NCBI RefSeq assembly: GCF_013487865.1
Contig: NZ_CP047409.1
Coordinates: 558,001-622,000, forward strand
Source of the DNA: Lactobacillus johnsonii
GTDB taxonomy: Bacteria; Bacillota; Bacilli; Lactobacillales; Lactobacillaceae
Length of the DNA stretch: 64,000 nucleotides
Reading direction: 5' to 3'
A model generated the notes under the pieces. The model was not told the origin of the DNA and did not search any database. It saw only the letters and a list, made by a program, of their open reading frames with translations. Made by a program: the position numbers and the translations under genes. Below, piece by piece: positions 40,703-55,574 of the stretch (position 1 is the first letter of the stretch; each line of letters opens with the position of its first letter).

Positions 40703-40872
40703 GTTTAAATTTTCATCCTTTTCTACTAGTAAAATTGTATACAGCGATTTTACTAGAAAAGACTAGGCGATTTATTCTTAAATTTTATATTCATAAATTA
40801 CTATTTTTCCTCTTAGTATTAATATCCTTAACTATTTTAATAATTATGAAGGTGTAAGACCAGGAAAAATAT

Positions 40873-40910
40873 AAAAAAATAGCGTTTCTCAATTTGGAGA
40901 GACGCTATTT
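40873..40910 (-). terminator. Terminator of the MarR-MFS operon
   Basis: AAATAGCGTTTCTC pairs with GAGAGACGCTATTT; on the minus strand it follows the MFS stop by 5 bases and ends in a T run. Confidence 0.9.
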
Positions 40911-40914
40911 AAAA

Positions 40915-42126
40915 TTATTTTGCAAGATTTCTAACGACATTCAAATTAAACAAAATCAAATTCAAGACCACAATACCTGCTGTGACAATAAATACCATGT
41001 TGTAGCTTGAAATACCGGCAATAAAGGAACCTAAAAGAGGCCCAACTATATTTCCAATATACATTGCACTCTGATTCCATGAAAAAATTCTTCCTGTTAC
41101 AGCAGCTGGTGAATTCTTAGTTAATAAAGTTTGAACTTGTGGGAAGAGACAAGCATCGGTAAAGCCTACTAAAAATCGTAAGATACCGAGTTGAGTTGTG
41201 TTGTGAACAAAAGCGGTTAAGAAGAAAAGAATTGTTGCTCCAATAAAACCACCGATAATAATTTTATGGGTTCCAATTTTATCTCCTAAGGCTCCAAAAC
41301 GAGAAGCAGCCAAAAACGTTGCAATTCCTGGTAATGCTGCAATAACTCCAGAAACGAAAACAACATCTCCGTGTCCATTCATTAATTGCTTAACATACAG
41401 TGAGACAATTGGATTAATTGAGTTATTAGCTGCTTGAATAATTAAAGTGGTTAGTAAAAGTCCAAAAATTAGAGCAGGAGAGCGGAGAGTTGCGATAACA
41501 CCACTGGCCTTATCTAATTTCTTTTCAGTAATAGGTTTAAAACCTTCTTCATGAACAAAGAATAGTGAAAGAAGGAAGGAGATTAACAATAAACCGCCTG
41601 TGATAAAGAAAGTAACTCGGTAGCTAAATGTAGAAGCTAGCGCACCTCCTAAAAATGGTCCCAGTAAGTTGCCGGCAGTGAAAGAAGAAGCCATTGTTCC
41701 TAAAGCCTGACCAGATTTTTCTTTTGGAGTTTCTGTAGCAATTAAGGCATTTGAGTTTGAAACAAACCCAGCAAATACTCCTTGCAACATCCTTAGGAAG
41801 AACAATTGCCAGACATTAGTCACTAATCCCATGCTTCCAAGAACAATTGCCATTCCTAAAGAAGCCCTGAGAATCATTAGTTTTCTGCCTTTTTTATCAG
41901 CTAATTTTCCCCACCAAGGAGAAATAATGGCTGAAACAAAGTATACGCCTGAGAAAATAAATCCAGACCAAAAATTTAATTGTTGGTGAGTAAAATGACC
42001 CAAGGTATCAATGTAGAGAGGTAGAAAAGGCATAATTTCGGAAAAAGCAATTCCAGCAATAAAAACTGCAATTGAAAGGATATAAAGATTCTTTTTCCAA
42101 ATCGGTTTATCTGATTTTTGCATCAT
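40915..42126 (-). CDS. MFS drug exporter, DHA1 (12-TM) family
   Basis: The 403-aa protein has 12 helices. WWGKLADKKGRKLMI is the MFS loop 2-3 signature, MLQGVFAG and ALGTMASSFTAGNLLGPFLGG the helix 4-5 region including the drug-antiporter motif. Overall order resembles PmrA/YwoG-type multidrug exporters. The start is ATG 42126, directly after the stop of the upstream small ORF, whose end supplies GGGAG. It is the last gene of a three-gene operon headed by a MarR repressor, which makes inducible efflux of a toxic compound the likely role. Confidence 0.9.
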   Translation of the reverse strand: MMQKSDKPIWKKNLYILSIAVFIAGIAFSEIMPFLPLYIDTLGHFTHQQLNFWSGFIFSGVYFVSAIISPWWGKLADKKGRKLMILRASLGMAIVLGSMGLVTNVWQLFFLRMLQGVFAGFVSNSNALIATETPKEKSGQALGTMASSFTAGNLLGPFLGGALASTFSYRVTFFITGGLLLISFLLSLFFVHEEGFKPITEKKLDKASGVIATLRSPALIFGLLLTTLIIQAANNSINPIVSLYVKQLMNGHGDVVFVSGVIAALPGIATFLAASRFGALGDKIGTHKIIIGGFIGATILFFLTAFVHNTTQLGILRFLVGFTDACLFPQVQTLLTKNSPAAVTGRIFSWNQSAMYIGNIVGPLLGSFIAGISSYNMVFIVTAGIVVLNLILFNLNVVRNLAK

Positions 42127-42336
42127 CTAATCTCCCAACTTTTTAAAATCTATAGTTTTGTTTTTCAAAGATATTTTGCCTACCTTGAAGCCGTAATTTA
42201 ATAGGTCTTTTTTGTAGGTTAAAAAGGAGTGATCGATTGGTAGACCTGCAATTTTTTTGATTTGATCAAAAGATAGTTGGAAATCTGCGTCTTTATTATC
42301 TTTAATGTATTTCCACAAGGGTTTGAATTTACTCAT
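42127..42336 (-). CDS. Small conserved-type protein, 69 aa, between MarR and MFS genes
   Basis: The product is short, basic and soluble. FKPLWKYIKDNKDADFQL, then FDQIKKIAGLPID, resembles a small domain seen in stand-alone bacterial proteins in which a hydrophobic start is followed by a helical FxxIxxIxGxxLP segment. I do not recognise a function. Coding status is supported by its tight packing: 15 bases after the MarR gene, zero bases before the MFS start, with an AAAGAAAGG ribosome site. It could be a partner or sensor of the exporter. Confidence 0.7.
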   Translation of the reverse strand: MSKFKPLWKYIKDNKDADFQLSFDQIKKIAGLPIDHSFLTYKKDLLNYGFKVGKISLKNKTIDFKKLGD

Positions 42337-42351
42337 TAATCTTGCCTTTCT

Positions 42352-42762
42352 TTAAATTTGTTTTTCTAAATTAGTTGAAATTCTCTCAAGCTTTAATAAA
42401 GTTTCGGAATCAACAGTTCCAACTAATTTATTTACGTCATCAAAAGCATCGTTTACTTGATCAAGAACTTCTTTACCAGCGGGAAGCAGGAACAATTGCT
42501 TCTTTAAGCTGTTTGTAGGATCTGGTCTTCGCTCAATCATATTGCGCTTTTCTAATAATTTAACTACATTAGTAAAGCTTGCTGGTTGGTAAAAAAGATA
42601 ATCAGCTACTTCTTTTTGAATGCAACCAGAATGTTTTTGGATATATCTTAAGACATGAGCGTGTGACATTCGTAGGTTAATAGAAGCTAGTTTTTGATTG
42701 ATCAAAAGATTTTCTAATTTGCCAATATGATAAAGTAAATTTGCTAAGGGTCTTTTTCTCAT
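42352..42762 (-). CDS. MarR-family transcriptional repressor of the adjacent exporter
   Basis: The 136-aa protein has the MarR winged helix: LRYIQKHSGCIQKEVADYLF as the first helices, ASFTNVVKLLEKRNMIERR as recognition helix, and RRPDPTNSLKKQLFLLPAGK as the wing. As the first gene of an operon with an MFS exporter it probably represses that operon until a ligand binds. Two copies of a TTGTAATTAC palindrome lie just upstream (42777-42792 and 42821-42836) and are the obvious operators. GAAAGGATACCT precedes the ATG. Confidence 0.9.
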   Translation of the reverse strand: MRKRPLANLLYHIGKLENLLINQKLASINLRMSHAHVLRYIQKHSGCIQKEVADYLFYQPASFTNVVKLLEKRNMIERRPDPTNSLKKQLFLLPAGKEVLDQVNDAFDDVNKLVGTVDSETLLKLERISTNLEKQI

Positions 42763-42776
42763 AGGTATCCTTTCTA

Positions 42777-42792
42777 AGTTGTAATTACAACT
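42777..42792. promoter_or_regulatory. Proximal MarR operator
   Basis: AGTTGTAATTACAACT is a perfect 16-bp palindrome, lying between the predicted transcript start and the MarR gene. A second imperfect copy sits 44 bp further upstream. Confidence 0.75.
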
Positions 42793-42806
42793 ATCAATTT
42801 AAAATA

Positions 42807-42836
42807 AGTATAGCGCAATTAATTGTAATTACGACT
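42807..42836 (-). promoter_or_regulatory. Promoter region with distal MarR operator
   Basis: On the minus strand TATACT (42807-42812) is a plausible -10 box; the -35 area is covered by AATTGTAATTACGACT (42821-42836), which matches the proximal palindrome at 14 of 16 positions. Bound repressor at both sites would occlude the promoter. Confidence 0.6.
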
Positions 42837-42849
42837 AGTCTCTTTTTAA

Positions 42850-42970
42850 TTCAAGGAATCAATAACCTTAGAAAAATCATATTTACGATAGTGTAATGCT
42901 ACTTTTTTATCTTTGAACATTACACTATGAATATCGCTAGAAGAATAGGCTAAGTAAAGACAATGAATAA
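42850..42970 (-). pseudogene. Possible 3' remnant of a minus-strand gene
   Basis: An open stretch ends LHYRKYDFSKVIDSLN and a stop codon, preceded by YLAYSSSDIHSVMFKDKKVA. It looks like the natural C-terminus of a protein, but no start or ribosome site exists upstream. The family is not recognised. Confidence 0.3.
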
Positions 42971-42985
42971 GAAAATAAAGACACG

Positions 42986-43025
42986 AAAAAAGCAGACATT
43001 CTGGGGGATTAGAAGTCTGCTTTTT
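42986..43025. terminator. Rho-independent terminator (orphan)
   Basis: AAAAAAGCAGAC pairs with GTCTGCTTTTT over a 17-base loop. No intact gene precedes it on either strand, which supports gene loss here. Confidence 0.75.
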
Positions 43026-43206
43026 AATGTCGTATGTTATTTTGGGAGAATAAGTAAGGTGTAGAAGTTCCCTTACTTGTTAAATAGAATACCTTTCTTT
43101 TTTTAAAGAAGATTTGGTATTAGATTTAAAATTTGCAAAGAATTTCTTTAAAAAGTTTAAAGACATAAATATAATTAAAATAAAAGCGTTTGCGAGAGAA
43201 AAAATT

Positions 43207-44289
43207 ATGAAAAAAGAACAATAAATTCAAATGTTAAAAGAATTTTCAGATGCAAATTCTACATCTGGATTTGAAGAAGAATTTGTAAAACTATTTTCTA
43301 CTTATGCTAAAAATACTGCTGATATTACGGTAGATGGGATGCTTAATGTATATGCAGCTAAGAAAGAAAATAAAGGTAATCGCCCTGTTATTCAAATGGA
43401 TGCTCACTCTGATGCAGTTGGTTTTATTACCCAGGCAGTTCGTCCGAATGGATTAATTAAATTTGTTCCACTTGGTGGTTGGGTAAAGTATAATATCCCA
43501 GCTTTAAGGGTGAAAATTCGTAATCGTGATGGTGAATATATTCCTGGAGTAGTAGCTACAAAGCCGCCACACTTTATGACTGCTGCTGAAAGAAAGTCAA
43601 TCCCAGAAGTTGCTGATATGTCTATTGATGTAGGTTCATCAAGTAGGGAAGAGACCATTAAAGATTATAAAATTGATACTGGTTGTCCAATTTTTGTTGA
43701 TGTAAAATGCGAATACCATGAAAAATCCGGCTTATTCTTCGGTAAAGATTTTGATGATCGCTTTGGTGCAGGAGCCATGGTAGACATCTTAGATAATTTG
43801 AAGGGTGAAGAGACTAATTTTGATGTAGTAGCTGCTTTATCTAGTCAAGAAGAAGTAGGACTGCGCGGTGCATATCTCACTGGACGAAAAATTAAGCCTG
43901 ATTTATGTATTGTTTTAGAAAGTTGTCCAGCTGATGATACTTTTGAGCCGGAATGGTTATCTCAAACTGGCTTAAAACGCGGTCCAATGCTCAGAGATAT
44001 GGACACTACATTTTTACCAAATCCTAAATTTCAACAGTATGCTTGCGATATGGCTGATAAGAATAATATTCCATATACTCGTTCTGTTAGAACAGGTGGC
44101 GGACAAGATGGGGCAGCAATTTATTATGAATATGGAGCTCCAACAATTGTTATTGGAATTCCAGTTCGTTATGAGCACTCCCCATATTGTTTCTCGGCAT
44201 ATAAAGACTTTAAGGCTTCAGTTGATTTAGCAACTGCAATTATTCGTGATATGACACAAGAAAAGCTAGATAGTTTTAAGGTGATCTAA
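43207..44289 (+). CDS. M42-family glutamyl aminopeptidase/endoglucanase-type metallopeptidase, possible start-region nonsense
   Basis: A dinuclear-metal aminopeptidase. MDAHSDAVGF gives the first metal-binding His and Asp, DFDDRFGAG the bridging Asp, and SSQEEVGLRGA the catalytic Glu pair. An open frame of 352 aa runs from ATG 43231, but this ATG has no ribosome site. An ATG at 43207 in the same frame has GAGAGAAAA upstream and reads MKKEQ, then TAA, then IQMLKEFSDANSTSGF, which fits the family N-terminus (M-KEE-L-LLK-LSDA-GISGF). So codon 6 (probably CAA) may have become TAA, with translation resuming at 43231. Activity may be reduced rather than lost. Confidence 0.8.
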
Positions 44290-44489
44290 TGGATTGGAAA
44301 GTATTTTTCAAAAAAGTAGCAATTTTTAGTTGGTGTATGGCCATTATTAGTATTTTGATTTATATTGTTCGTTATACAGCAAGTGAAATTGGTAATCTTT
44401 TTATGTGGGACCAGCCATTTATTTGGGAGTTAATTTTAGGACTTGTTTTTTGTCTCTTATCAGTTTTTTGGCCGAAGAAAAATAAATAG
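44289..44489 (+). CDS. Small two-helix membrane protein, 66 aa
   Basis: The start overlaps the stop of the aminopeptidase gene by one base, so it is translationally coupled. The product has two hydrophobic segments, roughly residues 10-30 and 45-60, joined by a short loop with SEIGNLFMWDQPF, and ends in a basic tail, FWPKKNK. I do not recognise a family. A terminator follows. Confidence 0.72.
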   Translation: MDWKVFFKKVAIFSWCMAIISILIYIVRYTASEIGNLFMWDQPFIWELILGLVFCLLSVFWPKKNK

Positions 44490-44509
44490 AATATAAATTA
44501 ATAGATATG

Positions 44510-44543
44510 AACCCCGAAACTAAGATAAAAATTTCGGGGTTTA
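44510..44543 (+). terminator. Rho-independent terminator
   Basis: AACCCCGAAA pairs with TTTCGGGGTTT over a 12-base loop. Confidence 0.85.
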
Positions 44544-44587
44544 TATCGTTTATAATAAAAATAAGTATTTGTTATAGAAGGTTAGCT

Positions 44588-45241
44588 ATGCATCTTTTAG
44601 AAATTAAAAATTTAAATTATTCTGTTGATGGAAATACCATTCTGAAAAATATTAATCTAAGTGTAAATTCAGGAGACTTTTTAACAATTATAGGACCTTC
44701 TGGTGCAGGAAAAAGTACACTTTTAAAAATTATTGCTAGCTTACTTACACCTACTTCTGGTTCAATAGAATATGAGGGAAAAGATATTAGTCAATATTCT
44801 CCGCTTGAATATCGTCGGCAAGTTTCCTATTGCTTCCAGCAACCGTCTCTTTTTGGAAAAACGGTAAGAGATAATCTGATTTTTCCTTACCAAATTCGAA
44901 GGGAAGAAGTCAATGAAGAGCATCTGGGTGAATTATTAGATAAAGTAAGTCTAAATCAGACTTTTTTGAAGAAAAATATTAATTCTTTATCTGGTGGAGA
45001 AAAGCAACGAGTTGCCTTAATTCGAAATCTAGTCTTTTTACCACAAATTTTACTATTGGATGAAGTAACTACAGGACTTGATGAAAATAGTAAGGAAATT
45101 GTTCATCATTTATTTGCTGATGTGCGCAAGAAGCATGTTACTATCTTACAAGTAACTCATGATAAAAGTGAAATTGAAAAAGCCAATAAAATTTTTGAAG
45201 TGAAGAAGGCATTTCTCGATGAAAAATGTAGTTGTCAGTAA
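44588..45241 (+). CDS. fetA: ABC exporter ATP-binding subunit, FetA (YbbL)-like
   Basis: The 217-aa ATPase has Walker A GPSGAGKST, Q-loop region SYCFQQPSLFG, signature LSGGEKQR and Walker B ILLLDEVTTGLD. Its partner is the overlapping downstream FetB-type permease, a pair known in other bacteria as an iron exporter that helps withstand oxidative stress. I choose ATG 44588, with AGAAGG just before it; a longer frame from 44507 would run through the upstream terminator. The iron role is by homology only. Confidence 0.85.
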   Translation: MHLLEIKNLNYSVDGNTILKNINLSVNSGDFLTIIGPSGAGKSTLLKIIASLLTPTSGSIEYEGKDISQYSPLEYRRQVSYCFQQPSLFGKTVRDNLIFPYQIRREEVNEEHLGELLDKVSLNQTFLKKNINSLSGGEKQRVALIRNLVFLPQILLLDEVTTGLDENSKEIVHHLFADVRKKHVTILQVTHDKSEIEKANKIFEVKKAFLDEKCSCQ

Positions 45242-45980
45242 CTGGTCTCTAGTTTTTGCATTCTTATTAGTTTTAGTATCAATTGGAATTTCTGTTAAAG
45301 AAAAGCTAGGCCTTACTAAAGATATTTTGCTTAGCGTTGTACGAGCCATTATTCAACTAGTCATTATTGGATATATTTTAAAAGTGATTTTCAATGTAAA
45401 TACTTTTTGGCTAACCTTTGTTTCTACACTTGTTATCATTTTTAATGCTTCCTGGAATGCGAATGGTAGAGATCCAAATACTAATCGAAAATTATGGAAT
45501 TCAATTATAGCTGAGGCCGTAGGAACCTACATTACATTAGCTGTATTACTTCTTTCTGGTGTCATTAAACCGATACCCATGCAAGTAATTCCAATTACAG
45601 GGATGATTGCAGGTAATGAAATGGTTGCAATAGGTCTTTGCTATAAATCTTTAAATGAAAGTTTTCATGATTTAAGACAGCCCGTTTTAGAAAGGTTAGC
45701 TTTAGGTAGTGATATTAAAACGGCATCGATGCCAATTATTCGGCGTAGTATTAAGACTGCTATGCAGCCAACGATCGATTCAGCTAAAACAGTAGGGTTA
45801 GTTAATTTGCCGGGGATGATGTCAGGATTGATCTTTGCTGGAGTAAATCCAATTTATGCAATTAAGTATCAGATTATGGTAACCTTTATGCTTTTATCTG
45901 CTACAAGTTTAGGTGCGATCATTTCTGTTTATCTTGCCTATAAAAATTATTTTAATGATCAGATGCAATTAATGCTCTAG
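45219..45980 (+). CDS. fetB: FetB (YbbM)-type ABC permease, UPF0014 family
   Basis: The 253-aa membrane protein has about seven helices. Family-specific stretches are AIIQLVIIGYILK, NASWNANGRDP, PIPMQVIPITGMIAGNEMV and LPGMMSGLIFAGVNPIYAIKYQ. The ATG lies within the last 23 bases of fetA in another frame, so translation is coupled. With FetA it should form an exporter, by homology for iron. A terminator follows within 2 bases. Confidence 0.88.
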   Translation: MKNVVVSNWSLVFAFLLVLVSIGISVKEKLGLTKDILLSVVRAIIQLVIIGYILKVIFNVNTFWLTFVSTLVIIFNASWNANGRDPNTNRKLWNSIIAEAVGTYITLAVLLLSGVIKPIPMQVIPITGMIAGNEMVAIGLCYKSLNESFHDLRQPVLERLALGSDIKTASMPIIRRSIKTAMQPTIDSAKTVGLVNLPGMMSGLIFAGVNPIYAIKYQIMVTFMLLSATSLGAIISVYLAYKNYFNDQMQLML

Positions 45981-45981
45981 T

Positions 45982-46019
45982 AAAAAGACTGTTCTGGTAT
46001 TATTTCAGAACAGTCTTTT
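45982..46019. terminator. Bidirectional terminator between fetAB and decarboxylase operon
   Basis: AAAAAGACTGTTCTG pairs with CAGAACAGTCTTTT (with a mismatch-free core GACTGTTCTG / CAGAACAGTC) between convergent units. Confidence 0.9.
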
Positions 46020-46049
46020 GAATTATATGAAACTAAAATTTAATGTATT

Positions 46050-47336
46050 TTACTCAACTCTAGCGATTTCATCATGAACTTTAATATTATGAGAACCTAA
46101 ACTTGGTTCTTGACCATGTAGATTAAATTTAACATTAACTCCTGGTCTAAACAAAAGAACATGTGTTGAGCCACCAAAGTGGAAAATACCTAATTGATCA
46201 CCTTTATTAATATGCTGACCAACTTTAACAGTAATTTCGTTGCCGGAAACTTCTGCCATACCAACAGCTACAAAGCACATTAAGCCAATCTTAGGATTGT
46301 CTGCTTTAATGAAGATGACTGCACGTGATGCAGTTTCGGTAATATAAGCTTGAGAATCATTGGGAGCAGCTGGATCAGGACCATTAGGATTTTCAAAGCC
46401 TTGTGGTAAAGTTTCAGAGTAATAAGAACCATATAGGTTGTAGGCTTTAACTACTGTTCCGCTTACTGGACTATTCCATCTGTGGTAACTTAATGCACTA
46501 AGAAATGCTTGATAAAGAGTACCACCAACAAATTCTGAAGTTAATGGATCATTATGGAGTAGGTCAATTAATGAATATGGTTGTCCTTTAATCCAGAATT
46601 TAGCCTTTAAAGGTAGGTTATGAGCAATGCGATATGGTGCTGACTCACAAGCGTTAGCAATTGAATCAGGATCGTCTGCATTAACAACTGGACGAACGCC
46701 AGGATTAAATGTCCGGGTAAAGAAGTGATCCCATGAAGTAAAACCATATTGTTGATCAATATTATTATTAGGACAAGCAAAAATATCATGGAAATCTTTG
46801 CCATAGGCAGCATCACACATGCTCTTTAATGCTTCATTTCCAAGCCATCCTTCTTTAGACCGATTAAGTACATACGTAGAATCAGGAGATTGTAAAAACT
46901 TTCCCCAGTAATCTAAAATATCACGTAATTTTTGATTAACCCGTGGATCCATAAAGGCAACATATCCAGCCTTGGTTGCCATTGGATAGTCGAGAATTGC
47001 ATTAATTGGGAAACCAACTAATCCAGTAGTATTAAATTTAGGAGCGCGGTGCATAACACGATTAATAACTCTCAGCATTTGATGATAGTTGTGAACTGCT
47101 GGAGTATCCATTGGCGTTTCAACATATTTTGCTGGCACTTCTTCAAACATCATGTGGAATAGGTTCCAAAGATATCGATCCGATTCAATTAAATCTTTTA
47201 GTGCTTGAACAGGTGGTAAAAGGGCTTGATCTTGTTCTGCTTCAGCTTCTTTTAGCACTTTCTTTAACCAGTTGTTGTAAAATTCCTGATCACTTGGTAA
47301 CCATTGTCCAACGTTAAATTTTACGTCTTTTTTCAT
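46050..47336 (-). CDS. Pyruvoyl decarboxylase of the PSD family, PsiD-like, copy 2
   Basis: The 428-aa protein has the N-terminal PSDC-type domain (IESDRYLWNLFHMMFEE, NTTGLVGFPINAILDYPMAT) absent from membrane phosphatidylserine decarboxylases, then the PSD catalytic domain: YHRWNSPVSGTVV with the conserved His, and GIFHFGGSTHVLLF, where Ser390 should become the pyruvoyl group after cleavage, leaving a 39-residue alpha chain. No membrane anchor is seen. The order and motifs closely resemble L-tryptophan decarboxylase PsiD. It lies 26 bases after an antiporter gene. I infer a soluble amino acid decarboxylase; its substrate is unknown. Confidence 0.82.
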   Translation of the reverse strand: MKKDVKFNVGQWLPSDQEFYNNWLKKVLKEAEAEQDQALLPPVQALKDLIESDRYLWNLFHMMFEEVPAKYVETPMDTPAVHNYHQMLRVINRVMHRAPKFNTTGLVGFPINAILDYPMATKAGYVAFMDPRVNQKLRDILDYWGKFLQSPDSTYVLNRSKEGWLGNEALKSMCDAAYGKDFHDIFACPNNNIDQQYGFTSWDHFFTRTFNPGVRPVVNADDPDSIANACESAPYRIAHNLPLKAKFWIKGQPYSLIDLLHNDPLTSEFVGGTLYQAFLSALSYHRWNSPVSGTVVKAYNLYGSYYSETLPQGFENPNGPDPAAPNDSQAYITETASRAVIFIKADNPKIGLMCFVAVGMAEVSGNEITVKVGQHINKGDQLGIFHFGGSTHVLLFRPGVNVKFNLHGQEPSLGSHNIKVHDEIARVE

Positions 47337-47362
47337 TTTAAACACCTTTTTAATATTAATAA

Positions 47363-48796
47363 CTATAATGAAATCTTCTTAGTAACTAGCAGATATACAG
47401 AGATAACAGCCAAAATACATATAATAATAGCCAATGCTAATTCCCACTTGTTAAATAGAGGGGTACCTTTCTTGTCGTATTCTTTTCTGGCAAAGTAGTA
47501 GAAGATTATGCCTACAGCATAAATAATTGTCGAAATTAGTAGGTAATTAAGTCCTGCTGCATATAAGAGCCATAGACAATAGATAGTTGATAAAATACCT
47601 ATGAATAAACTCTTATTACGTTTATGAGAATCGTTTGTAAAAATTTCGCGTTTTTGCGCAATTTTCCATAAGTACATTGAACTCAATAGATAACAAGGTA
47701 AAATTATTACCCCGGTAATGTCGATACATGCTAGATAAACGTTATTAGCTGTTACTACTAATATCATGAACAAGGACATCAAAACGCTTGAAATATATAA
47801 GGATACACTAGGCACCTTTTTCTTGTTTTCATGAGCAAAGAATTTTGGCAATACATGTCCTTTAGCTGCAGCATATGGAAGCTGAGCCATCATAACTGTC
47901 CATGCAACCCATGAACCACCAACGGAAATAATTACAGAAATTGTTACGAAGTCTATGAACCATGGACCTAATAAGTTTTTCATTAAGTAAGCTGTTGATG
48001 GATCAGTGAGTTTAGAAAGAGTTGGTTGGTGATAAATACCATAAGCAACAATACTAATTAGAATGTAGGCGATTAATGAAATTAAATAACCCATTACAGT
48101 TGCTTTACCAACATCTTTAGGATTTTTAGCGTGGTTAGAAATAACGACTGCACCTTCAATACCGATAAAGCACCATAACGTTACTAACATAGGAGCCTTA
48201 ATTTGACTAACAAAATTTCCTAAATGAAGACCTTGTCCCCAGAATCCCCAGAAAAATGTTGGGAAACGGAAGAAGATTAGCATACAAATTAAAATGATTC
48301 CTAAACTAATGAACTTGATGATGACTGTAATATTGTTAAGAAATGAGGCTTCTTTAACACCATTAAGAACTAAAAAATTATAAATCCAAATTAAGACAAT
48401 ACCGAATATAACAGTTGGCCATTGGTGTTTAAGCAAGACCGGAAAATAATGACCGAAGGAGTCATTAAGCATAACTGCATAGGCCACGTTTCCTGTAATT
48501 GCTTCAATCCAATAACCCCAGGCTGAGTTAAAACCAACGTATTTACCGAAACCAGCACGTGCATAGGAATAAATACCAATATTTAAGTCTGGTCTCTCTT
48601 CAGCTAGGATTTTAAAGGTAAAGGCAAGCCCAAACATACCAATACCAGTCAAAATCCAAGCAATGATGACGGCACCAAGTGAAGATGAAGCAGCCATATT
48701 TTGGGGAATATCAAAAATTCCTCCACCAATCATGGCACCGACAACCATCGCAATTAAGCCAAAGAGACCAATTTTACGACTGTTAGATTTAGTCAT
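47363..48796 (-). CDS. APA-type amino acid/amine antiporter (APC superfamily)
   Basis: The 477-aa protein has 12 helices and resembles the basic amino acid/polyamine antiporters such as ArcD, CadB-like and HdcP: VGAMIGGGIFDIPQNMA in helix 1, GFNSAWGYWIEAITGNVAYA in helix 3, and WCFIGIEGAVVISNHAKNPKDVGKAT in helix 6. It lies between two PsiD-like decarboxylase genes in one operon, 39 bases after the first and 26 bases before the second. This setting implies uptake of an amino acid in exchange for its decarboxylation product. Confidence 0.88.
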   Translation of the reverse strand: MTKSNSRKIGLFGLIAMVVGAMIGGGIFDIPQNMAASSSLGAVIIAWILTGIGMFGLAFTFKILAEERPDLNIGIYSYARAGFGKYVGFNSAWGYWIEAITGNVAYAVMLNDSFGHYFPVLLKHQWPTVIFGIVLIWIYNFLVLNGVKEASFLNNITVIIKFISLGIILICMLIFFRFPTFFWGFWGQGLHLGNFVSQIKAPMLVTLWCFIGIEGAVVISNHAKNPKDVGKATVMGYLISLIAYILISIVAYGIYHQPTLSKLTDPSTAYLMKNLLGPWFIDFVTISVIISVGGSWVAWTVMMAQLPYAAAKGHVLPKFFAHENKKKVPSVSLYISSVLMSLFMILVVTANNVYLACIDITGVIILPCYLLSSMYLWKIAQKREIFTNDSHKRNKSLFIGILSTIYCLWLLYAAGLNYLLISTIIYAVGIIFYYFARKEYDKKGTPLFNKWELALAIIICILAVISVYLLVTKKISL

Positions 48797-48835
48797 TATG
48801 AGATCTTCTTTCTTTTAATCAATAAAAATTCATCC

Positions 48836-50122
48836 TTATTTAACACGAGCTATTTCTTCACGAACTTTAATATTTGAACTGCCTAAACCAGGTTCTTGAT
48901 CATGTAAATTAAATTCAACTTGAGTTTCAGGTCTAAATAGAAGTACGTGGGTTGAACCACCGAAATGGAACATCCCTAGTTGATCGCCCTTGTTAACGTG
49001 TTGACCAACACGTACAGTGATTTCATCACTTGAAACTTCTGACATACCTACAGCGACAAAGCACATGAGACCAATCTTTGGGTTATCAGCCTTAATGAAA
49101 ATAACAGCACGAGTAGCCGTAGCAGTTAAGAAAGCCTGTGAATCGTTTGCAGCAACAGGATCAGCACCACGTTCATTTGCAAAGCCTTGATATAGACTTT
49201 CGGAGTAATATGAACCTGGTAAATTATATGCTTTAACAATAGTTCCACTAACAGGACTATTCCATCTGTGGTAACTTAAAGCACTTAAAAATGCTTGGTA
49301 TAAAGTGCCACCTTCAAATTTTGATGTCCATGGATCGTTATGAAGAAGATCCATTAATGAATAGGGTTGTCCTTTAATCCAGAACTTTGCTTTCATTGGT
49401 AAATCACGGGCAATTCTAAATGGAGCAGATTCACATGCATTAGCGATTGAATCTGGATCATCAGGATCTTGGACAGGACGAATGCCAGGATTGAATAAAC
49501 GAGTAAAGAAATTATCCCAGGAAGTAAAGCCTAAATGCTTTTCACGATCATTTGATTTACATTTGAAAATAGTTGTGAAATTATCGCCATCGGCTACTTT
49601 AGACATTTCGTTTAATGCATAGTCACTTAACCAACCATTTTTAGAAGTGTTAAGAACATAGGTAGATGCAGGAGTTTGCAAATATTTGCCCCAATAATTT
49701 AATATATCTCTTAATTTCTTATTGATTTTCGGATTCATGAAAAATACATATCCAGCTTTAGTAGCCATTGGATAATCCCAAATTGCATTGATTGGCGTTC
49801 CGACCAATCCGGTAGTATTAAATTCTGGAGCTCTTTGAATAATACGATTGAGCATTAAAAGCATTTGACGATAATTTCTTACTTGAGGAGTCCCCATCGG
49901 TGTGTCGACATATTTTTCAGGAATTTCATCAAACATCATTTGAGTAATATTGTACAAGTACCGATCAGACTCAATTAAATTTTTTAAGGCTTGAACGGGA
50001 GGAAGTAACTTTTGATTTTCTTCACTTTCTGCTTCTTTTAGAACCTTTTTTAACCATTTATTATAGAATTCTTGGTCACTTGGTAACCATTGTCCTACAT
50101 TGTATTGAATATTCTTTTTCAT
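48836..50122 (-). CDS. Pyruvoyl decarboxylase of the PSD family, PsiD-like, copy 1
   Basis: A 428-aa paralog of the decarboxylase at 46050-47336 with identical architecture and length: VGQWLPSDQEFYNKWLKKVL at the N-terminus, SYHRWNSPVSGTIVK, and FHFGGSTHVLLF with Ser390 as the expected pyruvoyl precursor. The two copies differ most around residues 180-210 (CKSNDREKHLGF versus CPNNNIDQQYGF), possibly a substrate or interface difference. It is the first gene of the operon behind a consensus-like promoter, with CGAGGT before the ATG. The annotation phosphatidylserine decarboxylase would be misleading: there is no membrane anchor, and the neighbour is an amine-type antiporter. Confidence 0.82.
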   Translation of the reverse strand: MKKNIQYNVGQWLPSDQEFYNKWLKKVLKEAESEENQKLLPPVQALKNLIESDRYLYNITQMMFDEIPEKYVDTPMGTPQVRNYRQMLLMLNRIIQRAPEFNTTGLVGTPINAIWDYPMATKAGYVFFMNPKINKKLRDILNYWGKYLQTPASTYVLNTSKNGWLSDYALNEMSKVADGDNFTTIFKCKSNDREKHLGFTSWDNFFTRLFNPGIRPVQDPDDPDSIANACESAPFRIARDLPMKAKFWIKGQPYSLMDLLHNDPWTSKFEGGTLYQAFLSALSYHRWNSPVSGTIVKAYNLPGSYYSESLYQGFANERGADPVAANDSQAFLTATATRAVIFIKADNPKIGLMCFVAVGMSEVSSDEITVRVGQHVNKGDQLGMFHFGGSTHVLLFRPETQVEFNLHDQEPGLGSSNIKVREEIARVK

Positions 50123-50192
50123 AATTTATACCTCGATATTTATGAAAAAAATAACGCTAATCTTAATAAAAAATGTGCACACTTTCAATATC

Positions 50193-50221
50193 ATTATAGG
50201 CTCAAATAAAAATAACGTCAA
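50193..50221 (-). promoter_or_regulatory. Strong promoter of the decarboxylase-antiporter operon
   Basis: On the minus strand TTGACG and a perfect TATAAT are separated by 17 bases, about 70 bases before the first ATG. No terminator or T-box intervenes, so initiation probably sets expression. Confidence 0.82.
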
Positions 50222-50363
50222 AAAATAAGAAGCAATATTCCAAATTAACATATATTCATAAAATTAAATTTAATGATAAGAATTGTTACTAAGAAGGCGA
50301 TATAATATTTATGGAAGAAAGTTACTTTTTATACTAAATATAAACATATAGGAAAGAAAAATC

Positions 50364-50743
50364 ATGGAACGAATACTAAAAATTAACTAATTTCTACACG
50401 GTGGAGATTATAATCCTGAACAATGGTGGGACGAACCAGATATTATTAATCAAGACTTCGCATTTTTTAAACAGGCGGATATCCATACAGTAACTGTAGG
50501 AATTTTTTCATGGGCAAAGGTAGAACCAGAAAAAGAATAGATCCTTTTGCTGGATTTGACTATCAAAAGCTAGCTAAGCATGTAGATCTTATCTCTTGGG
50601 ATTCTTATCCAGCTTGGGGTAATGACAATCAGACGACAGAAGAATTAGGTAGAAATATTAGCCTAATTCATGACTGCTTTAGGAGTTTGAAACATCAGAA
50701 CTTTTTAGTAATGGAAAATACACCACAAACAGAAGATAATTAA
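50364..50743 (+). pseudogene. Decayed GH42 beta-galactosidase
   Basis: An ATG with a nearby GGAAAG site begins MERILKIN, then TAA, then FLHGGDYNPEQWWDEPDI and HTVTVGIFSWAKVEPEKE, the GH42 N-terminus, before a stop. After an internal deletion the sequence resumes GFDYQKLAKHVDLISWDSYP and ends with LVMENTP, which contains the nucleophile Glu region. Complete enzymes are about 670 aa; here about 125 codons remain. Nonsense codons and deletion make it clearly dead, evidence of a lost galactoside pathway. Confidence 0.88.
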
Positions 50744-50860
50744 CGGTGAAGTTGTTCTTACTCCATTTGGAAGTAAGATTTATAAAAAAATAAATAGATA
50801 AAATGAGTATCTTTAAAAGTAAAGATTGCTTATTTTTTTGATATACTGCTCTGTACCAAT

Positions 50861-50890
50861 TTGACTACTTATTATAAATAGGTATAGAAT
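50861..50890 (+). promoter_or_regulatory. Predicted promoter of dtpT
   Basis: TTGACT is followed by TATAGA after 16 bases or TAGAAT after 18 bases, about 50 bases before the dtpT ATG. Confidence 0.6.
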
Positions 50891-50939
50891 AGACCTTTCT
50901 GTGTATATAAAACACATAATACAGAAAGGATAGTTTTTA

Positions 50940-52433
50940 ATGAATAATTCAACAACAGAGAAGACTTTCTTTGGACAACCTCGTGGCTTGTCCACCTTGT
51001 TCTTCACTGAAATGTGGGAGAGATTTAGTTACTATGGTATGCGTGCTATTTTACTCTTCTACATGTATTATGCCGTAGAACGTGGCGGATTAGGGATGAA
51101 TGAAACCACTGCTGCTTCAATTATGTCTATCTACGGTTCACTTGTTTATCTTTCTACGGTAGCTGGTGGATGGCTAGCAGACAGAATTTGGGGAGCACGT
51201 AGTACTGTCTTCTTTGGTGGTGTCCTTATTATGATTGGACACATTATCTTAGCCCTACCAATGGCAGAGGTAGGTTTATATATTTCGATCGCATTCATTG
51301 TGGTAGGTACAGGTTTACTTAAGCCTAATGTTTCTGATATGGTTGGTGGCCTATACTCATTAGATGATCGAAGACGTGATGCTGGTTTCAGTATCTTTGT
51401 TTTTGGTATTAACTTAGGATCAGCACTTGCTCCATGGTTAGTTCCTTGGGCAAGTGAAGGTTTTGGCCTTAATTTATTTGGAAATCATTTTAACTTCCAT
51501 GCTGGTTTCTCTTTGGCAGCAGTTGGAATGTTCTTTGGTTTAGTACAGTATGTTTGGGGTGGTAGAAAGTATCTCTCTGAGAATGGAATGCACCCAACAG
51601 ATCCAATCGATCCAGAAACTCGTAACAAAGTCTTAAAGAGAATCGGTTTAGGAGTTTTAGCTTTAGCAGTAGTATTAGGTTTAATGGCTGCTTTTGGTCA
51701 ATTAAATATTGATAATATTATTACTTTAATTACTATTGTTGCTATTGCCTTACCAATTTATTACTTTGTTTTAATGCTTAGAAGCCCTAAAGTTACAAAA
51801 GAGGAACGCTCAAAAGTTTGGGCTTACATTCCCTTATTTATTGCAGCTTCTATCTTCTGGGGAATTGAAGAATCTGGTTCTGTTGTTTTAGCTCTATTTG
51901 CTGCCCAAAGAACAGTACTTCACATCGGAGGATGGCACTTTACTGCTGCTAACTTCCAAACTTTGAACCCAGTATTTATCATGATTTTGACTCCGTTCTT
52001 TGTATGGTTATGGGATAACTGGAAGAAACAACCAAGTGCTGCTGGTAAATTTGCTGCTGGTTTGGTCTTTGCTGGTCTTTCATATATGTGGATGGCCCTT
52101 CCCGGAATGCTTTATGGAACAAACGGACGAGTTAGCCCATTTTGGCTAGTTGGCTCTTGGTTTATTGTTGAAATTGCCGAAATGCTTATTTCTCCAATTG
52201 GCTTATCTGTAACTACACGTTTAGCACCAAAAGCTTTCCGTTCACAGATGATGAGTCTTTGGTTCTTGGCAGATGCCACTGGCCAAGCTATTAACTCTCA
52301 AATTGTTAAATACTACTCAAGTAAAACTGAAGTGGCATACTTCTTAGCAGTGGGAATTGTTAGTGTATTGTTTGGTGTAGTGATGTTTTTCTTTACTAAG
52401 AAAATTCATAACTTAATGGCAGATGCTGAATAA
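50940..52433 (+). CDS. dtpT: Proton-dependent di/tripeptide transporter (POT family)
   Basis: This carrier imports di- and tripeptides with protons and supplies the many peptidases in the window. The 497-aa protein carries the POT signatures: FFTEMWERFSYYGMRAIL in helix 1 with the ExxERFxYYG motif, GGWLADRIWGAR, and FSIFVFGINLGSALAPWLV. Codon use is biased, suggesting high expression. AGAAAGGATAG precedes the ATG. An ISL3 element sits 22 bases beyond the stop, and the gene's probable terminator now lies beyond that element. Confidence 0.95.
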   Translation: MNNSTTEKTFFGQPRGLSTLFFTEMWERFSYYGMRAILLFYMYYAVERGGLGMNETTAASIMSIYGSLVYLSTVAGGWLADRIWGARSTVFFGGVLIMIGHIILALPMAEVGLYISIAFIVVGTGLLKPNVSDMVGGLYSLDDRRRDAGFSIFVFGINLGSALAPWLVPWASEGFGLNLFGNHFNFHAGFSLAAVGMFFGLVQYVWGGRKYLSENGMHPTDPIDPETRNKVLKRIGLGVLALAVVLGLMAAFGQLNIDNIITLITIVAIALPIYYFVLMLRSPKVTKEERSKVWAYIPLFIAASIFWGIEESGSVVLALFAAQRTVLHIGGWHFTAANFQTLNPVFIMILTPFFVWLWDNWKKQPSAAGKFAAGLVFAGLSYMWMALPGMLYGTNGRVSPFWLVGSWFIVEIAEMLISPIGLSVTTRLAPKAFRSQMMSLWFLADATGQAINSQIVKYYSSKTEVAYFLAVGIVSVLFGVVMFFFTKKIHNLMADAE

Positions 52434-52447
52434 AACAAACATAATTT

Positions 52448-52455
52448 AATATTTA
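52448..52455. repeat. ISL3 target-site duplication, left copy
   Basis: AATATTTA, identical to 53911-53918. Confidence 0.9.
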
Positions 52456-53910
52456 GGCTGTTTGTCAAATCCTGTTGATGAATAGTTTGTAAAGAGAGCT
52501 AAGCAACTAGAAAATAGTTGTTTGGCTCTTTTTCTTTTACAATATTTTCTTCAAGTCTAATTCTAATTAATAAATGTTTGAAATTTCTATAGCCATAAGC
52601 AGTACGTTCAATTTGCTTAATCTTCCGATTGACACCTTCAAGACAACCATTAGAGTAGTTAGAAGATATACCGTTTAGGACACCGGTATAATTATGCTTA
52701 AAGGTCAGTAGTGTTTGATGCATTTGTTTACCAACACTTTGTTTTGAATGAAGTAGATGGATAACTTTCTTTTCATCGTTATCCTGAATAGCAGTCATAA
52801 AGTCCTGCATAACCCAATAAGTATTTTCTAAGGTTTGGTCACAATCTAAACCATCTAAGACAACATGTTCCTGAGTGAGAGAGTCTTTAAAGTGCCAATC
52901 GTAGTAGGGAGTAGTCTTATTAAGTTTGTCATATTTCATGAGATAAAGCTTCCAAGGAGACTTTAAAAGCTTATATTCATGGCTTTGCTTTTTAAATTGC
53001 TTCATGATTTGAACTCTGAAAATATTAAACGATCTAGTAAGCATTTGAACCATATGAAAACGGTCAATAACTATCTGAGCATTTGGAAATAATTCTCTAG
53101 CAACTAAAGGATAATAACAATTAAGATCCATAGTTACTGTTTTAACCATTGCACGAGCTTTAGGAGTGAACTTGTAAAAATAGCGTAGAATATCAGGTTT
53201 GAAACGAGTTCTAAGAATTTGAACAACTTTGTGAGTATCACCATCTAGACAAATAAAGTGAAGCTTTTTGCCTACACCTTTGAATTCATCAAAGGCTAAG
53301 TGTTCAGGGAGATGATCAAAGTCATCATAGAACTTAGAAGAGCAGGCTTCTAATACTCTTTGAACCGTGTTGACAGATACATTATGTTCTCTAGCAATGC
53401 TGGTCATTGAACGATCTTCAGTAAGAGCAGAAAGTATTTTTCGCTTAGAAGTGTTAGAGATATAGCAGCTTTTATTAACCAGATTAGATTGAGCCATAGA
53501 TCTTTTTAAACAATCATTGCAGAGAACACGTTGTTTTCTTAATCTGATAGTAACGGGCTTACTAGCATCAGCAGTAATGAAACGAACGTTAGAAACGTAA
53601 TGACCGTTATGCTTAAGATTAGAGGAAAGACAGTAAGGACAATGGGACTGAATAAGTTCAGCTACATAGAGATTATGATATTTGCCGTTAATATATTTTT
53701 TAAAATAATCAGAAAAATAATATTAGGATCTTCAATATTGAGATGAAATTTAATACAATCATTGTTAGAGGACATAAGCAATCACCTTTATTCTTTAGAG
53801 TGGAATCAGAAGATTTAATGCAGTGAGGCTTATGGCCTCTTTCTTTGTGCAATAAAAATCCTGTCGATAGAATATCATAGATATCCATCAACAGGAAAAA
53901 GTATAGAGCC
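52456..53910 (-). mobile_element. ISL3-family insertion sequence, 1455 bp, with 8-bp target duplication
   Basis: Imperfect inverted repeats begin GGCT at 52456 and at the complement of 53910, sharing the stretch CCTGTTGATG. They are flanked by a perfect direct repeat, AATATTTA, at 52448-52455 and 53911-53918, the 8-bp duplication expected of ISL3. The transposase inside has a frameshift. The insertion lies between dtpT and what looks like its terminator. Confidence 0.93.
52499..53775 (-). pseudogene. Frameshifted ISL3-family transposase
   Basis: The catalytic part (52499-53497) is open, with HLAFDEFKGVGKKLHFICLD, TVTMDLNCYYPLVARELFP, VIDRFHMVQML and SNGCLEGVNRKIKQIERTAYGYRN, the ISL3 DDE region. 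The N-terminal zinc-finger part starts at ATG 53773-53775 (MSSNNDCIKFHLNIEDPNII) and includes CPYC and LCNDC cysteines, but a run of five T (plus-strand A at 53713-53717) needs a sixth to join the two frames. One base has been lost, so this copy cannot make a full protein without frameshifting. Intact length would be 425 aa. Confidence 0.88.
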
Positions 53911-53918
53911 AATATTTA
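53911..53918. repeat. ISL3 target-site duplication, right copy
   Basis: AATATTTA, identical to 52448-52455. Confidence 0.9.
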
Positions 53919-53920
53919 AT

Positions 53921-53964
53921 AAGGAAAGATTTGATGGGTAATTCGGATCTTTCCTTATTTTTTT
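53921..53964 (+). terminator. Probable dtpT terminator displaced by ISL3
   Basis: AAGGAAAGAT pairs with ATCTTTCCTT over a 16-base loop, followed by ATTTTTTTA. Without the element it would lie about 30 bases after the dtpT stop. Confidence 0.85.
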
Positions 53965-54077
53965 ATAAAATCATTAGTTCACACTTTTGAGAATGCGTTT
54001 TAGTAAAATTTTTGCGCCTAAGGTAATACAATGAAAAATGAATAAGAAAGGTTATTTAAATGAAAGTGTGATATATA

Positions 54078-55484
54078 ATGATTGAAAGTAATCACAGTGC
54101 ATGTACATCAATTTTAATTGGGAAAAATGCTACTACAGATGGCAGCATTATCATTGGACGTAATGAAGATGATAAGCCAAACTGTGCTAAGCATTTAGCT
54201 TTTCATGAAGAAAAGGATATTCCTAATAATCACTTTAAGTCTAACTTGAATAAGTTTGAAATGGATTTACCAATTCATAGATATGCTTATTCTTCAACTC
54301 CAAACTGGAGTGACAAGAAGGGTGTTTATGAAGAATCTGGGATTAACCAATTTGGTGTAGCAATGAGTGCTACTGAAACTACCTATGCCAATGACCAAGT
54401 TCAATCTTTTGATCCATTCAAGAAGACCGGTATCATTGAAGAAGCAATGGTAACTTGTATCTTGCCTTATGTAAAGACAGCACGCGAAGCTATTGCTCGT
54501 TTTGCTAAGATTATTAAAGATCATACTGCAGGTGAATCAGATGGTATTTTGTTCGCTGACCCTAAAGAAGCTTGGTACTTCGAAATTGGTACTGCTCACT
54601 ACTGGGTAGCACAACGTATTCCAGATGATTGCTATGCTGTAGCTGCTAATGAATTAGCCATTCAAGAAATTGACTTTAATGACTCTGATAACTTCATTAC
54701 TGCTCCTGGTTTACAAAAATTTGTTGAAGAACATAATTTATGGCCAAATAATAAGCCATTTAATTGGCGTCGTATTTTTGGTACACATAACCTGTTGGAT
54801 TTAACTTATAACACTGCTCGTGTTTGGACTGGCCAAAGAATCTTAAGTCCTTCTATTAAGCAAGAGCCAAGCAGCTTTGATATTCCATTTATTCAAAAAG
54901 CAGACCATCCAATTTCAATCACTGATGCCCAAAGAGTATTAAGAGACCACTATGATGGAACTAAATATGATGTAGCAAATCCTGTTAATAAAGATACAGC
55001 GGTATATCGTCCAATTAGTGTTGACTTTACTGAAGAGTCACACTTACTGCAACTGAAAGGTAAGGATTGGATTCACTGGTTATCATTAGGCATTACTTGT
55101 CAAAATGTATATGTTCCTTTCTACCCACAAGGTAGCGTAGTACCAAGCTTCTATAGACACGGCAAAGATAAGTATGCTTCAAACTCAGCTTATTGGATTT
55201 ACAAGGAAGCACAAGTCTTAGCTGATCGTTCATGGAAAGACTATGGTTTGCAATTGTATCAGGCTAGAAATGCTACACAACAAAAATTAAGTCAAATGCG
55301 GGCAGAATATGATGTTAAAGTGGATAAGGAAAAAGATCCTGCAAAGAAGCTAGACTTAATTAATAAAGCAAACAAAGACTTAGCTCATACGGCAGTTAAA
55401 GACTACCAAGAATTAATTGGTAAGTTAATCACTAAGCAAATAAAGAAATCACCATTGCACTTTAGAAGAGACCCAGACTTATAA
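54078..55484 (+). CDS. pepD: C69-family dipeptidase, second PepD-type enzyme
   Basis: The 468-aa Ntn-hydrolase begins MIESNHSACTSILIGKNATT; Cys9 is the predicted nucleophile after a short leader. GIIEEAMVTCILPYVKTAREA, ESDGILFADPKEAWYFEIGTAHYWVAQR and YNTARVWTGQR are PepD segments. It differs from the C69 gene at 32227 by its leader, and by the SHLLQLKGKDWIHWLSLG region. No strong ribosome site precedes ATG 54078, but a tiny frame with AAAGG (ATG AAA GTG TGA, 54061-54072) lies just upstream and may help by coupling. Codon use suggests high expression. Confidence 0.9.
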   Translation: MIESNHSACTSILIGKNATTDGSIIIGRNEDDKPNCAKHLAFHEEKDIPNNHFKSNLNKFEMDLPIHRYAYSSTPNWSDKKGVYEESGINQFGVAMSATETTYANDQVQSFDPFKKTGIIEEAMVTCILPYVKTAREAIARFAKIIKDHTAGESDGILFADPKEAWYFEIGTAHYWVAQRIPDDCYAVAANELAIQEIDFNDSDNFITAPGLQKFVEEHNLWPNNKPFNWRRIFGTHNLLDLTYNTARVWTGQRILSPSIKQEPSSFDIPFIQKADHPISITDAQRVLRDHYDGTKYDVANPVNKDTAVYRPISVDFTEESHLLQLKGKDWIHWLSLGITCQNVYVPFYPQGSVVPSFYRHGKDKYASNSAYWIYKEAQVLADRSWKDYGLQLYQARNATQQKLSQMRAEYDVKVDKEKDPAKKLDLINKANKDLAHTAVKDYQELIGKLITKQIKKSPLHFRRDPDL

Positions 55485-55574
55485 TCTAGGATTGTAAATC
55501 ATAAAAAAACGAGTAGAATAAGTTCTGAAGAAATAATTGAATGACAGAGAGCATTCGTTTTGGAGGAATTTAAT

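Follow-up and report, generated by a model that had tools for sequence, protein, structure and literature searches.

The stretch of Lactobacillus johnsonii DNA analysed here (64,000 nucleotides; assembly GCF_013487865.1, contig NZ_CP047409.1, positions 558,001 to 622,000 of the forward strand; hereafter the window) carries a predicted operon of three genes, which probably encodes an amino-acid decarboxylase–antiporter system built on a pyruvoyl enzyme of the phosphatidylserine decarboxylase (PSD) fold, whatever its amino acid. Two paralogous enzymes, A and B, flank an amine-type antiporter in one same-strand gene run, the layout from which the operon is predicted. According to the open reading frame (ORF) calls, the order on the minus strand is A, antiporter, B:

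48836..50122, minus strand: decarboxylase A, PSDC plus PSD fold, 428 amino acids (aa), predicted self-cleaving pyruvoyl amino-acid decarboxylase; S390 codon at 48953-48955.
47363..48796, minus strand: antiporter, 477 aa, TIGR00905 basic amino acid/polyamine (amino acid:amine) antiporter.
46050..47336, minus strand: decarboxylase B, 428 aa counted from the ATG, paralogue of A; S390 codon at 46167-46169.

The intergenic gaps are 39 bp between A and the antiporter and 26 bp between the antiporter and the ATG of B; a GTG further upstream in the B frame would give a protein of 431 aa.

A and B share 75% identity, and both match the Pfam families PSDC (PF12588) and PS_Dcarbxylase (PF02666). Ser390, within the sequence FHFGGST, occupies the same position in both proteins and is invariant, like D203 and H285, in an alignment of 44 sequences that includes A and B. 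The GGS cleavage site is present, and the Asp-His-Ser residues (D203, H285, S390) presumably play the same roles as in PSDs. The ORFs, the Pfam matches and this alignment bear out what had been read from the sequence alone, namely two 428-aa PSDC plus PSD proteins, each with Ser390, placed around an antiporter. When A was compared with PDB sequences, the Aspergillus oryzae protein 9jer scored 268 bits, PsiD 224 and E. coli PSD 27, and profile scores followed the same order (396, 349 and 53, respectively); identity is 41% with the A. oryzae enzyme and 38% with PsiD. The PDB title of 9jer calls it an arginine decarboxylase, and its sequence file says PsiD-like; A. oryzae reportedly possesses a PSD-fold arginine decarboxylase. 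The AlphaFold model of A, built from the 44 sequences, has a mean pLDDT of 82.6 and a pTM of 0.84, with residues 1-14 and 247-253 below 50. Its fold matches PsiD bound to tryptamine (8zia, TMt 0.89), then the A. oryzae structures 9jer (0.82) and 9jf5 with arginine (0.81), while the match to E. coli PSD is weaker (TMt about 0.68, TMq about 0.41). We infer that A and B are cytoplasmic, self-cleaving at S390 and active as decarboxylases. The operon genes are under purifying selection, with NG86 dN/dS ratios of 0.012-0.022 for A, 0.013-0.026 for B among near orthologues (0.099 against L. rodentium) and 0.018-0.057 for the antiporter; a reservation must be set against these values, since dS lies at 0.35-1.9 and is partly saturated, which makes the ratios rough.

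The labels that Pfam and the databases attach to A and B, together with their PSD domain, would suit ordinary phosphatidylserine decarboxylases that supply phosphatidylethanolamine and happen to flank an unrelated transporter. This reading fares poorly in the phylogeny, which the sequence-only reading had proposed as a check. In a tree of 74 rows, a branch supported at 100/100 parts 67 PSDC-type rows, among them PsiD and 9jer, from seven true PSDs, and A and B do not fall among the latter. The true PSD rows are E. coli and six of the 20 Bacilli PSDs fetched, and the PSDC rows were likewise chosen from a larger fetched set; the inner placement of PsiD and 9jer is unsure because of their long branches, and a long-branch warning applies to the Burkholderiaceae rows beside the outgroup. 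Moreover, every NCBIfam PSD model matched scores below its cut-off (for B, 53 against 112 and 85 against 371). A separate, shorter and better-scoring true PSD is present in 11 of the 12 other PSDC-bearing genomes checked, which were hand-picked from the loci of the wider scan described below. True PSDs such as E. coli Psd and those of Bacilli have the catalytic domain in common with A and B, but lie across the 100/100 branch and are usually encoded by a second gene. In the L. johnsonii genome itself, the PSD domain occurs in A and B only, and no phosphatidylserine synthase of the CDP-alcohol type was found, the sole CDP-alcohol phosphatidyltransferase being PgsA; the phospholipase-D-type PssA of E. 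coli was not searched. A true PSD identity was rejected on the NCBIfam cut-offs, the tree and the separate PSD of the 11 genomes, and we regard the lipid-synthesis reading as extremely improbable. PDB scores, tree and fold model all agree with the earlier description of these proteins as PsiD-like rather than phosphatidylserine decarboxylases.

The middle gene is an amino-acid permease according to Pfam. Its product passes the TIGR00905 model (510 bits, cut-off 409) and stays below the cut-off of every single-substrate model matched, including TIGR03810 for ArcD (495 bits, cut-off 591) and the TyrP model (37 bits, cut-off 630). It has no close paralogue in its own genome, where the next best protein shares 27% identity. 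In an antiporter tree of 15 rows, from which two TyrP-like rows were left out, it stands on the decarboxylase-linked side (97/92), which comprises 11 rows, five of them PSDC-linked. Topology tests, for which the groups were named after seeing the tree, rejected its placement with two ArcDs (p-AU 0.005) and weakly rejected that with the hdc-linked antiporters (0.033), whereas placement with the arginine/ornithine-decarboxylase pair was not rejected (0.349). ArcD membership was rejected on its score together with the p-AU of 0.005, and TyrP membership on its score. The settings of nine relatives, picked from 40 listed plasmid records (135 matched), include a pyruvoyl arginine decarboxylase with aguAB (one), an ornithine decarboxylase with arginine deiminase (one), an Orn/Lys/Arg decarboxylase (two), hdcA (two) and arc genes (two), and one has no such partner. 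With regard to AdiC, residues N101, W202 and W293, in the numbering that we assume for that protein, are kept in the window antiporter, but S26 and M104 are not.

The pairing of such an antiporter with a PSDC-type gene recurs. A search found an antiporter orthologue (at least 88% identity) in eight of 75 Lactobacillus genomes, and a PSDC gene adjoins it in all eight, at differing genomic sites; a further 14 of the 75 genomes have antiporters of 31-38% identity only. Six of the eight show the order A-antiporter-B, with a third PSDC copy in L. taiwanensis DSM 21401. The other two (L. rodentium and G864) carry the antiporter and B only, so these form the core unit and A is an added paralogue. Among 99 loci scanned for adjacency, about 90 of them distinct since nine duplicate a place already covered, a same-strand antiporter lies within 100 bp of the PSDC gene in eight distinct places, and a divergent TyrP-like antiporter at 326-381 bp in three; an ArcD-type antiporter 2.8 kb off in one Photobacterium metagenome-assembled genome (MAG) was not counted. 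Outside Lactobacillaceae, the pair is found about 30 bp apart on the conjugative plasmid pUPC1 of Enterobacter cancerogenus and about 100 bp apart on plasmids of Photobacterium damselae. These two proteobacterial antiporters are 69% identical, their PSDC partners 47%. E. coli genomes gave no match to the pUPC1 pair, and phages gave two matches only, with the PSD domain alone and annotated psd. Paired PSDC proteins occupy three places in the PSDC tree, and a single ancient PSDC–antiporter unit, with the two antiporter groups held together, was weakly rejected (p-AU 0.036, the group being named after the tree); several pairings or swaps are therefore more likely. Besides these pairs, at L037 9751-11283 in Lactobacillus sp. 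LL6, an orphan PSDC gene is followed by a YfcC-like permease of the DcuC family (293 bits, cut-off 500), possibly another basic amino acid transporter.

Several observations pull against a decarboxylase–antiporter system. Most PSDC genes have no neighbouring antiporter, the pairing being seen in 11 distinct places among about 90, and five of the seven plasmid settings first read (taken from 37 matched records) lack it, against two that have it. Plain identity of the window antiporter to some ArcDs (41%) equals that to the decarboxylase-linked antiporters (36-43%). Cellulomonas, one of the 12 PSDC genomes mentioned above, holds the PSDC type only, without a separate true PSD. The scarcity of adjacent antiporters would also fit an antiporter serving another pathway, for example arginine import, with decarboxylases that act on an internal metabolite. 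So would seven loci from Bacteroidales, proteobacteria and Campylobacterota (L058, L061, L063, L065, L104, L110 and L115), where the PSDC gene accompanies a distant protein of the PAD/agmatine-deiminase family and a C69 dipeptidase. Such a separation of functions is nevertheless very unlikely in view of the eight-out-of-eight linkage at differing sites in Lactobacillus and of the separate pairings in two other lineages. The antiporter family and the recurring pairing thus support the proposal, already made for this locus, of an amino-acid decarboxylase working with an amine antiporter, at least as the type of system that these sequences suggest.

The surroundings of the pUPC1 pair (L158) may bear on its function. 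Within about 13 kb of it lie aspT with an aspartate 4-decarboxylase gene, evgA, a YfdX gene and cadBA. The array further contains genes for malic enzyme, a DUF308 protein, an EmrA/EmrK adaptor with a major facilitator superfamily (MFS) pump and a further pyridoxal-phosphate (PLP) decarboxylase, and this decarboxylase/antiporter array with its own evgA spans positions 10188-41202 of the record. EvgA, YfdX and the HdeD-like (DUF308) proteins are, as we take it, acid-stress proteins. This neighbourhood, together with the analogy to known systems, supports the suggestion in the sequence-only reading that the system would generate proton-motive force and confer acid resistance.

As to the substrate, L-arginine, which would be converted to agmatine, is our tentative first choice, favoured because of the nearest solved enzyme homologue and the company that the antiporter keeps. 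At 14 positions chosen by the analyst after seeing how the conserved columns split, A and B are identical throughout; 11 of these residues match the arginine enzyme and not PsiD, three (position 282 among them) match neither and none matches PsiD alone. The identity of A and B at all 14 positions gives no support to the earlier idea that the two enzymes serve two substrates. The PAD-like clusters are a loose pointer to arginine chemistry: all four neighbours scanned pass Pfam PAD_porph, while agmatine-deiminase models give 23-40 bits in three of the four and nothing in the other (cut-offs 382-483). The L061 cluster additionally has a phospholipase-B-like protein. No PAD-family protein was found in the L. 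johnsonii genome, so that agmatine would probably be the end product here.

Other evidence is less favourable to arginine. The residue at 282, which lies three positions ahead of the catalytic His, differs among the three types (Leu in A and B, Asp in the arginine enzyme, Thr in PsiD), so that the pocket of A and B may depart from that of the A. oryzae enzyme. Among columns conserved in 90% of the 44 rows, 21 match the arginine enzyme alone, 16 PsiD alone, 65 both and 10 neither; 21 against 16 suggests a weak preference for the arginine enzyme, and settling the substrate from conserved columns was dropped because of so slight a split. On pUPC1, the further PLP decarboxylase is nearest to arginine decarboxylase, although its 375 bits are far below the cut-off of 1167; an arginine role of the PSDC enzyme would be redundant there, which is a mild point against arginine as its substrate on that plasmid.

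Leu282 would equally suit the same system working on another cationic amino acid (lysine, ornithine or histidine) and yielding cadaverine, putrescine or histamine, as would Glu98 of the window antiporter, where the arginine- and ornithine-linked antiporters have Ser. TIGR00905 antiporters, moreover, also accompany ornithine, Orn/Lys/Arg and His decarboxylases. We nonetheless hold this to be somewhat unlikely, since an arginine decarboxylase is the nearest solved enzyme homologue and a PLP gene resembling ornithine decarboxylase is already present in the genome (TIGR04318, 898 bits over a 436-aa stretch, cut-off 950).

Aromatic amino acids had been put forward as candidates on the sequence alone, and enzymes acting like PsiD on Trp, Tyr or Phe would release tryptamine, tyramine or phenethylamine. 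PsiD is indeed the best fold match of the A model, 16 conserved columns agree with it only, and in two Lactobacillus MAGs (L049, L050) and one Limosilactobacillus (L054) a PSDC gene stands divergent from a TyrP-like antiporter gene (486 bits in L049, cut-off 630), near a tyrosine decarboxylase (876 bits in L049 and 867 in L054, cut-off 905). The window antiporter, on the other hand, groups with those linked to cationic decarboxylases and is far from TyrP by its score; the nearest solved homologue of the enzymes, 9jer, is an arginine decarboxylase, with which, rather than with PsiD, A and B side at 11 of the 14 chosen positions. Positions 281-282 are Val-Phe in the TyrP-linked rows, Ala-Leu in A and B, and Val-Thr in PsiD, position 282 varying in other rows too. 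Furthermore, MAG MGBC166701 carries both the antiporter operon (L044) and the TyrP-linked PSDC gene (L049), as expected if their substrates differ, binning errors aside. The aromatic proposal has thus lost ground, and we judge it distinctly unlikely for the window operon. The Glu/Tyr decarboxylase family was not found in the L. johnsonii genome. Deducing the substrate from an RNA leader was dropped as well, as positions 40000-56000 of the window have no Rfam match at gathering score and six related loci have only tRNAs and a ribosomal leader.

With regard to distribution, PF12588 occurs in 15 of 397 Lactobacillaceae genomes, namely 13 Lactobacillus (this one included), one Limosilactobacillus and one decayed copy below the cut-off, and in none of the other 397 of the 398 Bacillota genomes sampled. 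From the 171 relatives that the wider scan yielded, 79 loci were retained, with 71-99% identity in Lactobacillaceae and 45-55% in other phyla. At 98.4% identity, the window operon is close to its counterpart in L. taiwanensis DSM 21401, whereas stretches on either side of it are 95-99% identical to G037, a genome with one different PSDC copy at that place; we read this as a horizontally exchanged module. Decay is also seen. L. johnsonii ATCC 33200 has a broken gene (L034, 8672-9881, the same as L085) whose front is A-like (92%) and whose back is B-like (93-96%), and the antiporter is gone; it looks as if the DNA between the two paralogues had been deleted and the remainder had then decayed. 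Among 89 PSDC proteins, a simple hydrophobicity count flagged seven signal-peptide-like N-termini, two of which look like over-long starts. The five candidates left (L057, L060, L066, L078 and L106, the last of which looks Tat-like by eye; one subclade, 97/78, holds four of them) are possibly exported pyruvoyl decarboxylases.

Predicted regulatory elements lie on both sides of the operon:

50193..50221, minus strand: predicted promoter, TTGACG-17-TATAAT, best of 21 matches (11/12).
50170..50186, minus strand: operator-like palindrome GAAAGTGTGCACATTTT, directly 3' of the -10 element.
45983..46019, no strand assigned: predicted bidirectional intrinsic terminator, a 14-bp perfect inverted repeat with a 9-nt loop, between the operon and the convergent gene.

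The promoter described in the sequence-only reading is present, and similar -35 and -10 elements stand, by eye, upstream of A in two related loci (L029, L030) and less clearly in three others (L031, L043, L044). Taken by itself the match is weak evidence, since chance would give 26.9 matches to the pattern and 21 were found. A GTGCAC-centred palindrome, AAAGTGCACTTT or a near form, lies at the same place in all five of these loci, the AAAGTGCACTTT form having been looked for in the fetched loci only and not genome-wide. The window form GAAAGTGTGCACATTTT occurs exactly only once in this genome, the remaining matches carrying three mismatches, and no regulon of the palindrome emerged. Rfam gave nothing at gathering score across 40000-56000, with two sub-threshold matches, one of which, RefA9 (29.4 against 49 bits), lies over the 45983-46019 repeat. 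Upstream of the operon, 50353-50718 holds remnants of a beta-galactosidase-like gene of what we take to be family GH42, and L029 has a 678-aa frame at the same place. Near the operon, a transposase-like ORF (52499-53497), presumably ISL3-like by eye, has a 91% identical stretch, inverted, beside the single PSDC copy of G037 (L039).

Taken as a mechanism, the window antiporter would exchange an outgoing amine for the amino acid from which it derives, in all likelihood a cationic one, with L-arginine as the likeliest candidate. Once imported, this amino acid would be decarboxylated in the cytoplasm by A and B, which would have formed their pyruvoyl cofactor by cutting themselves at S390; each turnover would consume one proton. 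The resulting amine, agmatine in the case of arginine, would leave through the antiporter, and the cycle would raise the internal pH and build proton-motive force; the direction of transport and the acid resistance are inferred. Beyond this operon, we lean slightly towards a broader proposal, in which PSDC-type proteins are a bacteria-wide and unrecognised group of pyruvoyl amino-acid decarboxylases filed as PSDs. On several separate occasions, such enzymes would have been recruited to the amine antiporter modules that gut lactobacilli and plasmids carry, and their paralogues would act on different substrates, a cationic amino acid in the window operon and a tyrosine-like one beside TyrP. A 2025 survey of gut amino-acid decarboxylases describes three pyruvoyl groups (His, Asp-1 and some Arg), and the word phosphatidylserine is absent from its main text (PMC12484125), so that PSDC-type genes would be missed in surveys of that kind. 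If the proposal is right, an enzyme annotated as a lipid enzyme underlies amine production and acid resistance not only in some gut lactobacilli but also in Photobacterium and on one or more conjugative plasmids of Enterobacter, and a fold known from psilocybin chemistry extends to bacterial acid stress.

Among characterised enzymes, the PSD-fold arginine decarboxylase of A. oryzae (PDB 9jer, 9jf5 with arginine, and 9jfn) comes closest to A and B, being the best PDB sequence match with the same two-domain fold and GGS site, although it is fungal and has D282 where A and B have L282. PsiD, the L-tryptophan decarboxylase of psilocybin biosynthesis (8x4q, 8zia), is alike in its PSDC plus PSD fold and GG(S) cleavage site, but belongs to fungal secondary metabolism and lacks 11 of the 14 tabulated residues common to A, B and the arginine enzyme. 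In open-access literature, consulted mostly as titles and abstracts, no bacterial PSDC-type amino-acid decarboxylase or antiporter pairing was found. The type of system is known, and the PSD-fold enzyme in its decarboxylase slot is new as far as that literature goes. The decarboxylases of known antiporter-based acid-resistance systems are PLP enzymes or have other pyruvoyl folds. The gene logic of the window operon is that of AdiA/AdiC, CadA/CadB, HdcA/HdcC, TyrDC/TyrP and pyruvoyl ArgDC with its antiporter, and its antiporter belongs to the subfamily found beside pyruvoyl ArgDC, ODC and HdcA; what sets it apart from the known acid-resistance systems is a PSD-fold enzyme in the place of the decarboxylase, present in two copies.

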